This document shows positions 15,346-19,943 of a DNA stretch of 64,000 nt, one piece after another. Position numbers and translations under genes: made by a program. Below the pieces are notes generated by a model that worked only from the letters and a program-made list of their open reading frames with translations, did no database searches and was not told where the DNA came from. This DNA is from Bdellovibrionales bacterium (GTDB lineage: Bacteria; Bdellovibrionota; Bdellovibrionia; Bdellovibrionales; JAMPXM01): positions 1-64,000 of the forward strand of contig SYLX01000229.1 of the NCBI GenBank assembly GCA_005808505.1, given 5' to 3'. Position 1 is the stretch's first letter. Each line of letters starts with the position of its first letter.

Positions 15346-16302
15346 TCAAAAAATTCGTGAGTCCGAGACAATCGCGGTGATCAATTTTTTCGGTGTGACA
15401 TCAAAGGCCGGGTTCCAAACGGCCGAGCTCTGATTCGCCTGGCGACCGGAAACTTCTTCCGCTTTTCTTTCTTCGATCGGAATGGCGGCGCCATCCTTAC
15501 AAGACTCATCAAAAGTTGTTTGTGGAGCCACGACGTAAAATTTAACGCCGTGATGGTGCGCGAGCACGGCTAAGCCGTAAGTTCCGATCTTATTCGCGGC
15601 ATCGCCATTTCGAGCGATCCGATCTGCACCGACAAAAACTTTTTGAACGCGCCCCTGAGCCATCAAGGCCCCTGCCATGTTATCGCAAATCAAAGTGTGC
15701 GGAATGCCGAGTTTCGAGAGTTCCCACGCGGTTAGACGAGCCCCTTGGAGAAGGGGTCGTGTTTCATCAACAAAGACGTGGATCCTTTTGCCTTGCTCGT
15801 GCGCTCGGCGGATCGCACCTAAAGCTGTGCCAACGCCCGCAGTCGCGAGCCCGCCGGTATTGCAATGTGTGAGGATTTGGTCGCCGTCCGCGATGAGACT
15901 TGCGCCGTTATCGGCCATGGCTTCGCAAAGAGCGACGTCCTCGATGAAAATGGCTTCAGCTTCGCTGATCAAGCGGCCGCGTTCAAAGGGATTGAGTGTG
16001 AGTTTGAGACGATCGATCGCGGCGGCTAAATTGACGGCTGTGGGACGAGCTTCGCGAAGCTCATCAGCAGCGATCGTCAACGCCTCGGCGGAAGCTCCTT
16101 TCTCCGCCGCTTGCGCTAGCGCTAGGGCTGCGGCTACCCCGATCAAGGGCGCACCGCGAACCGCAAGACGTTGAATCAACTGAATCATATCCCGCGGCTC
16201 GCGACATTCGATCCACTTCTCTTCGTGAGGGAGAAGCGTTTGGTCCAAGACAAAAAGGCGATCACCTTCAGCACGAAGCGCAAGGGAGTCGAGAGTCTTC
16301 AT
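15346..16302 (-). CDS. mtnA: S-methyl-5-thioribose-1-phosphate isomerase
   Basis: 318 residues. The family landmarks are RGAPLIGVAAALALA (substrate phosphate region), the catalytic Cys in ILTHCNTGGLATAGVGTALG, and KVFVGADRIARNGDAANKIG with the catalytic Asp. MtnA interconverts 5-methylthioribose-1-phosphate and 5-methylthioribulose-1-phosphate, and accepts 5-deoxyribose-1-phosphate in some organisms. It is the last gene of a four-gene operon; its ATG overlaps the aldolase stop by four bases (ATGA). In this context it supplies the ketose for the aldolase. eIF2B-like homologues are excluded by the Cys/Asp pair. Confidence 0.92.
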   Translation of the reverse strand: MKTLDSLALRAEGDRLFVLDQTLLPHEEKWIECREPRDMIQLIQRLAVRGAPLIGVAAALALAQAAEKGASAEALTIAADELREARPTAVNLAAAIDRLKLTLNPFERGRLISEAEAIFIEDVALCEAMADNGASLIADGDQILTHCNTGGLATAGVGTALGAIRRAHEQGKRIHVFVDETRPLLQGARLTAWELSKLGIPHTLICDNMAGALMAQGRVQKVFVGADRIARNGDAANKIGTYGLAVLAHHHGVKFYVVAPQTTFDESCKDGAAIPIEERKAEEVSGRQANQSSAVWNPAFDVTPKKLITAIVSDSRIF

Positions 16303-16949
16303 AATGTTCTGGGTCCTAGTTTTTTTCTCATCTCTTCTAAGACAGCGATCTCGACCGAAGGCAATGCGGTCAATCCGCCAATCTCCACCGCTGATTTGAG
16401 AATGAGGGCCGCGTGTTCAAGGCGTTCCATTCCGTTGTAGGCCTCTGAGAGATCTTCTCCCCAGCTGAGAGCTCCGTGACGTGCGAGAATCATCACGCGA
16501 TGATCCGGCAACAAAGGCTCAAGGACTTCACCCATAGCGGCCGTTCCCGGCCGCGCGTAGGGTGCAATTGGCACGCGCCCGACAGCAAGAATCAATTCCG
16601 ACATCGAATCTTTCGGAAGCTCCTTGAGATCGGGTCGCGCAATGGTCCAAGCGATAGCCGTTGGTGGATGCGCATGTACGACCGCCCGCGCGTGAGGGGC
16701 GCTCGCATAGATTTTTAAGTGCATCGCCCGTTCGCTCGATGGTTTGCCCGAAACTACGGTGCCATCAAGTTTGACGACCGCGAGATCTTCAGGAGCTAAC
16801 TCCGCTTTATTTACACCTGCAGGTGTGATCAAGATTCTGTCGTCGCTCATTCGGTAGCTGACGTTTCCGTCGGCCGAAGCGAGATAATTCTTGGCGTTGA
16901 GCCGTTGGCAGATCGAAACGATTTTGGCGGCGACTTGTTCTTGCGTCAC
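16299..16949 (-). CDS. Class II aldolase/adducin-family protein, probable Ald2-type aldolase
   Basis: 216 residues, GTG start overlapping the deaminase stop by four bases. The zinc site is AVVHAHPPTAIAWTI plus ARHGALSWGEDLSEAYNGM, and the N-terminal phosphate pocket reads SADGNVSYRMSDDRILITPA. The sequence is closer to fuculose-phosphate or Ald2 aldolases than to MtnB dehydratase, since MtnB normally has a different N-terminal motif and partner genes (mtnC, mtnD) that are absent here. As Ald2, it would split 5-methylthioribulose-1-phosphate or 5-deoxyribulose-1-phosphate into DHAP and 2-methylthioacetaldehyde or acetaldehyde. The exact reaction is inferred from the operon. Confidence 0.8.
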   Translation of the reverse strand: MTQEQVAAKIVSICQRLNAKNYLASADGNVSYRMSDDRILITPAGVNKAELAPEDLAVVKLDGTVVSGKPSSERAMHLKIYASAPHARAVVHAHPPTAIAWTIARPDLKELPKDSMSELILAVGRVPIAPYARPGTAAMGEVLEPLLPDHRVMILARHGALSWGEDLSEAYNGMERLEHAALILKSAVEIGGLTALPSVEIAVLEEMRKKLGPRTL

Positions 16950-18310
16950 GCCTGCCCTCGGCTAGTAAATCTCTTCAGCGAAGCCTGGATCTTTTCGCGA
17001 ATCGCGTCTGCTTCCTTTAAGACTCGAGCTTTCTCGATCGAGAGAACTTCTTTTTTCCTCATCAACGCACGCCCTCGGCAAAAGACCGTATCCACTTCAA
17101 GCCCTTGAGTTGAATAAACAAGTTGGCTGCGGAGATCGTGAAGTGGCTGCAGGTGCGCGTGATCAAGATCGATCAAAATGAGATCAGCATCTTTGCCAAC
17201 TTCGAGACTGCCGATTTTGTCTTGGAGGCCCAGAGCCTTCGCGCCGCCCCAGGTGGCGGCGACCAACGCATCGGAAGCCACCATCGCCGTGTTGTCGCCG
17301 GATGCTAGTTTTTGAATCTTCGTTCCAAGATCCATCGCACCAAAGATCGAGAGATCGTTGTTGCTGGCCGCACCGTCGGTTCCCATTGCGACCGTGATTC
17401 CTTCACGCAAATAGCGAGCGATAGGCGCAACTCCGGAGCTGAGTTTCAAATTTGAATCTGGATTGTAAACAACCGACGCTCCCGATCTCTTAAAAATTTC
17501 GATGTCATCGTCGGTGAAGTGCACGCAGTGAGCCGCGATTGTGCGAGGACCTAGGATGCCCAAGTCGGCGAGACGTCGAACCGAAGTTTTTCCGTGAAGC
17601 TTGAGTGACTCTTCTTGCTCGTGCTTCGTCTCGGCTACATGGGTATGGATGAAGCCTGAGAGTTCATTCGCAACGTCGGAGACTTTGCGCAACGTCAAAT
17701 CGCTGCAGGTATAGGGCGCATGCGGCCCAAGAGCGGGCACGATGCGTTCGTGCCCGGAGTACCGTTGATGGAACTCTCGATAGAGTTTGAACTTATCTTT
17801 TCCTAACTCTGCGTCTTCGGGGAGTGGACCGTCCGCCAAGACCTGCGCGATCCAGGCGCGAGTACCTGCGCGCTCAACACAATCAGCCACCGTATTGGCG
17901 AAGAAATACATGTCCGCGGTAGACGTCACGCCAAAGCGGATCGATTCGAGTAGCGCTAGTTCAGTTCCAACGCGAACGAAATCACGATCGACGAGTTTCG
18001 CTTCGAGCGGCAAAATCCGTTCAAACAGCCATTTGTGAAAAGGAACGTCATCTTCAAGGCCGCGAAAGAGCGTCATCGCAAGATGCGTGTGTGCATTGAC
18101 GAGCCCAGGCATGACCGCCATTGAAGACGCGTCGATGAACTCATCCGCAAGTTTCGATTTTTCGGATGACCAGGGACTGACTTCAGTGATTTTACCACCG
18201 GAGAACTGCAGGTAGACGTCGCGCTCAACCGCCTGTTCGCCGCTCGCGCGACCACCTTTCATCGATAAAAAGTAGCCACAACGAAGGCCGGTGCTTACTT
18301 CTCCAACCAT
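16946..18310 (-). CDS. MTA/SAH/5'-deoxyadenosine deaminase (amidohydrolase)
   Basis: 454 residues from the ATG at 18310, which has AGGGA upstream at good spacing and overlaps the phosphorylase stop by 16 bases. Metal and substrate motifs of the MtaD/DadD amidohydrolase family are present: PGLVNAHTHLAMTLFRG, FIHTHVAETKHEQEES, TIAAHCVHFTDDD, and VYNPDSNLKLSSG followed by MGTDGAASNND. These enzymes deaminate the adenine of methylthioadenosine, S-adenosylhomocysteine or 5'-deoxyadenosine, giving the inosine analogue. That product suits the 6-oxopurine-type phosphorylase encoded just upstream. Cytoplasmic. Which nucleoside is preferred cannot be read from sequence. Confidence 0.88.
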   Translation of the reverse strand: MVGEVSTGLRCGYFLSMKGGRASGEQAVERDVYLQFSGGKITEVSPWSSEKSKLADEFIDASSMAVMPGLVNAHTHLAMTLFRGLEDDVPFHKWLFERILPLEAKLVDRDFVRVGTELALLESIRFGVTSTADMYFFANTVADCVERAGTRAWIAQVLADGPLPEDAELGKDKFKLYREFHQRYSGHERIVPALGPHAPYTCSDLTLRKVSDVANELSGFIHTHVAETKHEQEESLKLHGKTSVRRLADLGILGPRTIAAHCVHFTDDDIEIFKRSGASVVYNPDSNLKLSSGVAPIARYLREGITVAMGTDGAASNNDLSIFGAMDLGTKIQKLASGDNTAMVASDALVAATWGGAKALGLQDKIGSLEVGKDADLILIDLDHAHLQPLHDLRSQLVYSTQGLEVDTVFCRGRALMRKKEVLSIEKARVLKEADAIREKIQASLKRFTSRGQA

Positions 18311-19221
18311 TTCAAAATCCCTTTGACGATCCTCAACGCGGAGGCGCGGCACGTCTCGAGGATTTTTTCGTGATCGAGCGGCTGACCGTCACCAAGACCG
18401 CAGGCCGCGTTGCTTATGAGCGAAAGACCCGCAAGCTGTGCGCCTGAATGTTTGAGCGCGATCGCTTCCCACACAGTCGACATTCCAACGGCGTGAACAC
18501 CCCAACGCCCGTAGAGCTCAACTTCCGAAGGAGTTTCGAAACTTGGTCCAAGGAGGCCCATGTAGATTCCGCGGTGGCATTTCACTCCTTCAACCTGAAG
18601 GAGTTTTTCAATCTCGCTCATCCACTGCGGCTCGTAAACTTGGCTGAGATCAGGAAAGCGAGGCCCCAGTTCCCGGCCATTGGGCATTACGGGATTTTCG
18701 CCCGTCAGGGGATTTTGTCCGGTCATGTTCACGTGATCGCGAATGATCATCACGTCGCCCGCCGTGTGAGCACGATCGATTCCACCGGCAGCATTCGAGA
18801 GCAAGAATCGCGATGTGCCTGCCAGACGCGAAATCATGACCGGAACAACGGCTTCGCGCGCGGAGTGTCCTTCGTAGCCGTGAAGACGCCCGCTTTGGAA
18901 AACGATTTTTTTCCCCGTCTTCGTGTTTTCAACGAAACGGTACTTTCCCGCGTGATCTTGGACGGTCGAAACCGGAAGACCTGGGATCTCGTCAAAGCTA
19001 AGCTCGCCCATGAGGCGCCACGCATTCGTCTCTTTCAAGATGGAATCGAGCGCGGCCCCGAAACCTGAGCCGAGCACCATGTGAAAATCAGGAGCGCTAT
19101 TTAAACCAACGCGCTTAAGTGCGCCTTGAAACGCGGCGAGCGCTTCGGATGTCACGTAAGAATTTTTCGAATGAGCGGTCACGGATGAATCAGAGACTTT
19201 AGTCGACATGCATTCGAACAT
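18295..19221 (-). CDS. Purine nucleoside phosphorylase family (trimeric PNP type)
   Basis: About 309 residues. The start is uncertain (ATG at 19221 or 19209, TTG at 19239; none has a good ribosome-binding site). Family motifs: VLGSGFGAALD (phosphate loop), FQSGRLHGYEGHSA, LLSNAAGGIDRAHTAGDVM, and the active-site MGLLGPSFETPSEVELYG followed by VGMSTVWEAIALKH and SLISNAACG. The Asn in the last motif is the residue that favours 6-oxopurines in trimeric PNP; MTA phosphorylases differ here. So hypoxanthine-containing substrates are expected, consistent with prior deamination by the next gene. First gene of the operon. Confidence 0.85.
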   Translation of the reverse strand: MFECMSTKVSDSSVTAHSKNSYVTSEALAAFQGALKRVGLNSAPDFHMVLGSGFGAALDSILKETNAWRLMGELSFDEIPGLPVSTVQDHAGKYRFVENTKTGKKIVFQSGRLHGYEGHSAREAVVPVMISRLAGTSRFLLSNAAGGIDRAHTAGDVMIIRDHVNMTGQNPLTGENPVMPNGRELGPRFPDLSQVYEPQWMSEIEKLLQVEGVKCHRGIYMGLLGPSFETPSEVELYGRWGVHAVGMSTVWEAIALKHSGAQLAGLSLISNAACGLGDGQPLDHEKILETCRASALRIVKGILKWLEK

Positions 19222-19333
19222 TTCATAGATCTGCGCCAAGCGTCAAGGACAGCGCTTTACGAGTCTAGGGAGATACGTCAGGCTTTTAAAAACGGGAATT
19301 CGGTGAACACGTTTTCGATGACGGGAGAGACAA

Positions 19334-19909
19334 ATGAGCGATGCGGCTTCTTCCAACTCAGCTCCGCAAAGTTATTGGCGCAAATGCAGCTCTTGCAAAA
19401 AGCCAATTGGTCTCGGTGCCCAGTATTTTATCTGCAGCGTCTCAACGTGTAATAACCCGCGCACGGGTTACGCTTTTTGTAGTGTTCACTGTTTTGAAAG
19501 GCATCTGCCTGGTGCAAGACATAAAGATGCGGGAGCGATCGAGAAGACGGCTCCCCATATTCCGCACGACGCTCCGGCCGCGAGCACGCCAGCTTCATCC
19601 ACAGCTTCATCGACTTCTTCACAAGGGGCCCAAGCCGAAGCTCGAACTCCGAATCGTGTGTTTGCGAAGTCCCCTTCGGCTACCGCTTCTTCACCGCGAC
19701 CTGGCGCAAATCTTCCGCGCGAAGTTCTCGTGATCGCCTCGCGCTTGAAGGACTACATCGCCGCGAGATCCGAGTTCAACACCTCGGGCTCGGTGATGGA
19801 TGTGCTTTCGGACCATTTGCGAATCATCTGTGATCGCGCGATCGACAACGCTCGTGCCGACGGAAGAAAAACCGTCATGGATCGTGACTTCGAATTTTTG
19901 AAAAAATAG
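19334..19909 (+). CDS. Zinc-binding domain plus C-terminal histone-fold protein
   Basis: 191 residues, ATG preceded by GGGAG. Residues 15-65 form a compact Cys/His domain with C18, C21, C34, C39, C49, C53, H57 and H63 (KCSSCKKPIG, ICSVSTC, YAFCSVHCFERHLPGARH), enough for two zinc ions. A Ser/Ala/Pro/Thr-rich linker of about 60 residues follows. Residues 127-191 are a histone fold: helix (VLVIASRLKDYIAARSEF), long central helix (MDVLSDHLRIICDRAIDNAR), then GRKTVMDRDFEFLKK. The R178-x-T180 and D185 spacing equals the archaeal histone RKT...D motif. Probably a DNA-binding, chromosome-organising or regulatory protein of the cytoplasm; DNA binding itself is inferred. Related Bdellovibrio histones (Bd0055) are only the short fold. 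Monocistronic with its own terminator. Confidence 0.85.
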   Translation: MSDAASSNSAPQSYWRKCSSCKKPIGLGAQYFICSVSTCNNPRTGYAFCSVHCFERHLPGARHKDAGAIEKTAPHIPHDAPAASTPASSTASSTSSQGAQAEARTPNRVFAKSPSATASSPRPGANLPREVLVIASRLKDYIAARSEFNTSGSVMDVLSDHLRIICDRAIDNARADGRKTVMDRDFEFLKK

Positions 19910-19911
19910 AA

Positions 19912-19936
19912 AGCGCGAGGTGACTTTCCTCGCGCT
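19912..19936. terminator. Bidirectional terminator between histone-fold and GST genes
   Basis: AGCGCGAGG (19912-19920) and CCTCGCGCT (19928-19936) are exact complements around TGACTTT. On the minus strand the stem is followed by TTCTATTTTTT, a strong U-run for the GST transcript. On the plus strand the tail (CTTACAATT) is weaker. It sits between the convergent stops at 19909 and 19944. Confidence 0.85.
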
Positions 19937-19943
19937 CTTACAA

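Follow-up and report, generated by a model that had tools for sequence, protein, structure and literature searches.

Genes and features at the locus

The gene examined here lies in a 64,000-nucleotide stretch of bacterial DNA, which we call the window. It stands alone and forms no operon with the adjoining genes (Table 1). The divergent gene upstream, whose start lies 95 bases away, is of the purine nucleoside phosphorylase type. Downstream, a convergent glutathione-S-transferase (GST)-like gene ends past a hairpin that separates the two genes. This hairpin is likely a terminator shared by both, with a presumed role on the plus strand. A four-gene run on the minus strand (15346-19239) encodes a purine nucleoside phosphorylase, an amidohydrolase, a class II aldolase, and an MtnA isomerase. 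The amidohydrolase is like 5'-deoxyadenosine/MTA deaminases, and the run resembles a shunt salvaging the ribose of 5'-deoxynucleosides.

Table 1. Features of the ZZ histone gene and its flanks, in window coordinates
Feature	Position	Strand	Basis or remark
Shine-Dalgarno-like GGGAG	19323..19327	+	Six bases 5' of the ATG, by sequence reading
ZZ histone gene, 191 residues plus stop	19334..19909	+	Open reading frame with start codon ATG at 19334; full-length homologues in 65 deduplicated relatives
ZZ-type zinc module, residues 14-75	19373..19558	+	Ligand invariance, pLDDT of the model, Foldseek match to the p62 ZZ domain
Disordered linker, residues 76-128	19559..19717	+	pLDDT < 50 at 81-92; motif enriched in the family
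Histone fold, residues 129-191	19718..19906	+	phmmer, AlphaFold2, and Foldseek; RKT loop 178-180; R178-D185 clamp
11-pair hairpin	19910..19938		Terminator-like site on the minus strand

A bacterial histone fold with conserved DNA contacts

An earlier note on this DNA had proposed a histone fold at the C-terminal end of the protein, and both sequence and structure comparisons bear this out. When we searched PDB sequences with phmmer, similarity to bacterial histones was significant: residues 129 to 186 matched HBb of Bdellovibrio (8cmp, E = 7e-11; 8fvx, E = 8e-11), and HLp of Leptospira was matched at E = 5e-5. The match of the window open reading frame (ORF) to the NCBIfam archaeal histone profile lay below the profile's cut-off. 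An AlphaFold2 model of the monomer, built with 65 homologues, contains the three-helix histone arrangement (helices 135-146, 152-175, and 183-189) at high confidence. Using Foldseek, we superposed the modelled histone half on HBb at 0.6 to 0.8 Å over 57 residues (0.6 Å for DNA-bound HBb structures) and on FtF histones at about 1 Å. The earlier note had staked its proposal on this fold and on detectable similarity to histones, and neither was missing.

The likeness to HBb (Bd0055; 8cmp, 8fvx, 9ezz, and 9f0e) extends to the residues that touch DNA. According to the available text of PMC11317129, HBb contacts DNA through S9, K10, K12, T23, S24, K52, T53, and R57, with a clamp between R51 and D58 and further contacts at T8 and A25. 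The counterparts of the first eight in the window protein are S136, R137, K139, T150, S151, K179, T180, and R184, and the clamp corresponds to R178-D185. Only two contacts change in type (T8 to A135 and A25 to G152). Across the 65 homologues, the DNA-contact positions are almost invariant, and few positions anywhere in the protein are better conserved. The histone folds of the two proteins are 46% identical and have the RKT...D loop in common, with ARDI in HBb replaced by DRDF in the window protein. HBb, however, is a short, abundant, single-domain protein. Judged as a member of the HBb-type class, the window protein keeps the DNA-contact residues and the RD clamp but departs from the short single-domain build, having 191 residues with a zinc module and a linker. 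The net charge of its histone half is +1, compared with +3 for HBb and +5 for its own zinc half.

FtF histones (HLp of Leptospira, 9qt0; HTkC, 9f2c) share the histone fold with the window protein but differ in the residues used for assembly. In the phmmer alignment, the HLp tetramer residues R49 and N53 are replaced by N172 and D176. With these residues missing, there is no basis for proposing a tetramer. A tree of the histone halves, based on 58 columns, was mostly unresolved and for that reason was not used to date fusion or fission.

The host genome assembly encodes three kinds of histone. Besides the window protein, there is an HBb-type histone (L002, G000:C41:2448-2627), which matches Pfam at threshold, and an FtF-type histone with a Lys-rich N-terminus (L003, G000:C85:6422-6634), which matches HLp at E = 9e-12. 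Since the assembly has a completeness of 93% and a contamination of 7%, either of these two could be foreign.

A ZZ-type zinc module at the N terminus

Residues 1 to 65 contain six Cys (18, 21, 34, 39, 49, and 53) and three His. Two of the latter, His57 and His63, form a conserved pair, whereas His52 is not conserved among the 65 homologues. The predicted zinc ligands follow the spacing C-x2-C-x12-C-x4-C-x9-C-x3-C-x3-H-x5-H and fall into a C4 site (C18, C21, C49, and C53) and a C2H2 site (C34, C39, H57, and H63), paired here according to the scheme of Schwab et al. (PMC11390915). In the 65 deduplicated homologues, seven ligands never vary and the eighth, C49, is present in 63, a degree of conservation far above chance. 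The six Cys and two His that the earlier note had assigned to two zinc ions are thus near-invariant in the family. The two relatives that depart from this pattern have Asp at the C49 position (L008/L091, FDSVGC; L013/L101, FDSVHC), which may still bind zinc.

The isolated zinc domain was modelled with a pLDDT of 84, and values within the full-length AlphaFold2 model were mostly > 90. In a Foldseek search of the PDB, the best match of the modelled domain was the ZZ domain of p62 (probability 0.99, E = 0.014, TM by target 0.62), an E value that is not < 0.001. It was followed by the ZZ domains of BIG, KCMF1, and PRT1, with MYND domains lower. Profile searches of sequence did not add to this. Pfam ZZ was not listed for the window protein in a search to E = 10 and was absent among the commonest 25 of the 49 weak families matched by the 65 members. 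A profile of the zinc module had no significant match among PDB sequences, and we found no Pfam family covering the module in its fused form. Because no sequence profile supports the assignment, "ZZ" is used here as a statement about the predicted fold. We also considered the module as MYND, HIT, or FLZ/FCS and rejected these candidates; the zf-FLZ, C1, and zf-FCS profiles were subthreshold, and the fold search ranks ZZ first. Viral relatives of the module were limited to matches of 28 residues at 39%.

Eukaryotic ZZ domains, such as those of p62/SQSTM1, BIG, PRT1, KCMF1, and p300, have C-x2-C at the third ligand pair. The window module is like them in predicted fold but has C-x3-C at that place and lacks the acidic reading pocket. 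It is also basic, with a charge of +5 that equals the family median and with conserved basic residues at K22 (63/65), R/K16, and R/K64.

The two halves are joined by a linker that the earlier note had described as disordered and roughly 60 residues long. Its disorder agrees with the model, but its length is closer to 53 residues. Across the family, the linker is of low complexity, and with the cut used its length ranges from 21 to 78 residues (median, 43). A motif in which RR directly precedes Ile, Val, Leu, or Met occurs in 29 of the 65 sequences, whereas 500 shuffles gave 1.8 on average and never more than 6, relatedness not being removed from this comparison. At the place of this basic-hydrophobic motif, the window protein has N-R-V-F-A-K (107-112). 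The suggestion that the protein might be tethered to the membrane finds no support. The model holds nothing besides the zinc domain, the histone fold, and the disordered linker between them, and no membrane segment is apparent in the sequence.

A member of a named but uncharacterized class

The window protein is a ZZ histone, an ordinary member of a class already named but uncharacterized. ZZ histones were defined by Schwab et al. in 2024 and are present in Bdellovibrio bacteriovorus, where their expression is low; the available text of that paper (PMC11390915) gives them no function. Both halves of the window protein fit this class, which the earlier note had correctly suggested by name. Like D0LYE7 of Haliangium and the Bdellovibrio ZZ histone, it combines an N-terminal ZZ-like module of C4 and C2H2 sites with a C-terminal histone fold resembling the bacterial dimer type. 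Ligand spacing from the first Cys is equal at seven of eight positions. The one difference found is that the published sixth ligand stands two residues after the fifth (C51 and C53), whereas here it stands four after (C49 and C53); the published C51/C53 is probably a numbering slip.

A second and longer histone, Bd3044, was reported by Hocher et al. in 2023 (PMC10627809) from 37% of Bdellovibrionota genomes, and the text available states that it cannot readily replace Bd0055. Bd3044 appears to be the Bdellovibrio ZZ histone. According to an excerpt of a review (PMC11318664), deletion of Bd3044 is lethal, whereas the excerpted primary paper (PMC10627809) describes deletion attempts for Bd0055 only. 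We found no paper after Schwab et al. 2024 that adds a function for ZZ histones. In our own search, a zinc-module profile matched 60 of the 144 genomes of the window's class (one of them weakly) and 174 of the 369 genomes of the phylum.

The zinc module occurs without the histone

The zinc module is separable from the histone, an observation that is new here with respect to the available text of the literature on the class. Short ORFs with the module came from a profile search of the phylum and were then fetched (labels denote loci, L; genomes, G; families, f; and genera, g). At least 23 related genomes encode the module without a histone fold (L125-L144, L162-L181, and L198-L200), with 12 of the proteins in families f20/f25/f26, eight in f14, and three more. 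This number leaves out three short ORFs of the window's class in G001, G142, and G036, which may be truncated. The eight zinc ligands occurred in identical spacing in all 20 histone-free relatives tested. Fifteen of the histone-free proteins, those of the f20/f25/f26 type, carry a basic tail with [IL][LIV]R[RK] at its end. The eight from f14 are mostly 72 to 75 residues long and end just after the module, without a basic tail.

The histone content of these genomes also varied. A separate KTVMDRDF-type histone was encoded elsewhere in each of the 11 f25/f26 genomes first tested. Because nearly all f26 genomes have such a histone, its presence alongside zinc-only proteins says little about a partnership. 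Among the eight f14 genomes, no histone was detected at E = 0.001 or better, with no match in seven and a match at E = 0.009 in one.

Fused and split forms can occur within a single genus. In one genus, the gene is fused in G352 and split in G353. In genus g140, the fused genes of G305, G313, and G316 have an in-frame ATG shortly before the histone fold, with a Shine-Dalgarno-like AAAGGG or AAAAGGAG immediately 5' of it. The genes of G307 and G311 comprise the histone alone; they begin at the counterpart of this ATG and are preceded by a matching sequence. Six fused genes have AAAGGGA, in which the Arg codon is AGG, a codon that makes up 2 to 9% of local Arg codons; because these genes are related, they do not represent six independent events. 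Judging from these sequences, translation likely also starts internally at the in-frame ATG of the fused g140 genes. The clade with the internal ATG comprises fused L015-L017, L020, L023, L024, L035, and L203-L205 and histone-only L054, L061, L062, L064, L201, and L202. The ZZ histone gene of the window has no internal ATG ahead of its histone fold.

Gene neighborhoods

Genes adjacent to ZZ histones were not conserved between lineages, and no operon partner was found. We therefore rejected the identification of a partner from conserved neighborhoods, as all synteny was local to clades. In one clade, for example, SMC is the fourth gene along, beyond genes on the opposite strand, and in one Bacteriovorax-like group a NUDIX-like gene comes next to the ZZ histone. 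The zinc-only genes of f26 had no neighbors in common. Those of two f14 genera precede genes that read as a membrane pyrophosphatase and ExbB/ExbD, a placement that may be mere synteny. In Oligoflexia-like genomes, the gene directly ahead of a stand-alone KTVMDRDF histone often reads as an FKBP-type peptidyl-prolyl isomerase (L051, L053, L055-L057, L065-L068, L070, L073, L075, L076, L079, L081, L083, and L084; the histone motif is present in L146 and L149-L151 as well).

Function of the ZZ histone

The best explanation as a whole, and one that we hold with modest confidence, is that the protein forms a DNA-binding ZZ histone dimer whose two zinc heads recruit a nonhistone partner, acting as an accessory rather than a bulk packager. 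The histone folds would pair into a dimer, and this dimer, like HBb, would bind the backbone of DNA irrespective of its sequence. Each dimer would therefore carry two mobile zinc-finger heads. The target of these heads would be a nonhistone partner, most probably a protein, which would thereby be brought to the nucleoid or bridged to DNA. In the literature, the ZZ histone of Bdellovibrio is scarce and HBb is abundant, which points to an accessory recruiter rather than to bulk chromatin. In addition, relatives that carry the halves as separate proteins suggest that the zinc finger is an adaptor whose task does not depend on the histone. Since the module is free or split from the histone in related lineages, the fusion represents one way of arranging two parts that can also be separate.

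The distribution of charge, with a weakly charged histone half and a strongly basic zinc half, leaves room for the zinc half itself to bind nucleic acid. A dimer of this kind would bridge strands through four DNA or RNA contact points. The conserved basic residues at 16, 22, and 64 are in keeping with this alternative, as are the basic tails of the f20/f25/f26 zinc-only relatives. However, the f14 proteins lack such a tail, and the closest folds are those of ZZ domains, followed by MYND domains, both of which are protein-binding modules in known cases. We regard a nucleic-acid-binding head as improbable but worth serious consideration.

It is very unlikely that the histone half serves only for dimerization, in the manner of a TAF, and not for DNA. 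Its net charge is weak, and excerpts of PMC11390915 describe DUF1931 and transmembrane categories of histones that lost their DNA contacts, but the DNA-contact residues are kept almost completely in the 65 homologues.

A further alternative is that the zinc module reads histone tails or free N-termini, as eukaryotic ZZ domains do. Its best fold matches are to ZZ domains that hold degrons or N-terminal residues (p62, BIG, PRT1, and KCMF1), and the host genome has HBb-type and FtF-type histones, the latter with a Lys-rich N-terminus. However, the aspartates of the p62 pocket that hold N-terminal residues, which we take to be D129, D147, and D149, map by ligand spacing to positions 19 (Ser/Gly), 45 (Gly), and 47 (Val/Ala), which are acidic in only about 2 of 65 sequences. 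The module is also basic, and it persists in f14 genomes where almost no histone is detectable, which argues against a reader of histone tails and for an independent partner. The available text of PMC11390915 likewise judges that the ZZ pocket is not conserved and that histone-tail reading is unlikely. Our estimate of the chances of tail reading is correspondingly low. Very improbable is a zinc sensor or store that regulates genes through the histone half: each chain has two predicted zinc sites, but the eight near-invariant ligands have the spacing of a structural zinc finger, and no metal-transport genes recurred nearby among the neighborhoods compared.

We tentatively raise the possibility that ZZ histones represent one form of a bacterial chromatin-adaptor system with two parts, in which a free adaptor and a free histone would cooperate in some lineages and be fused in others; in one genus, a single gene would make both the fusion and the free histone by way of an internal start. 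The free zinc adaptor, which in f20/f25/f26 ends in [IL][LIV]R[RK], would then be a new protein family, a proposal that shares the same tentative standing.

ZZ histones are among the prokaryotic histones without an assigned function, and the separable module is the feature most worth following. It offers a way in, as the histone-free proteins allow a search for partners without the DNA-binding half, and the fused and split pairs within a genus provide a natural comparison. If the recruiting role is true, a bacterial histone that carries its own zinc-finger adaptor would offer a simple parallel to the modules that read chromatin or recruit to it in eukaryotes.
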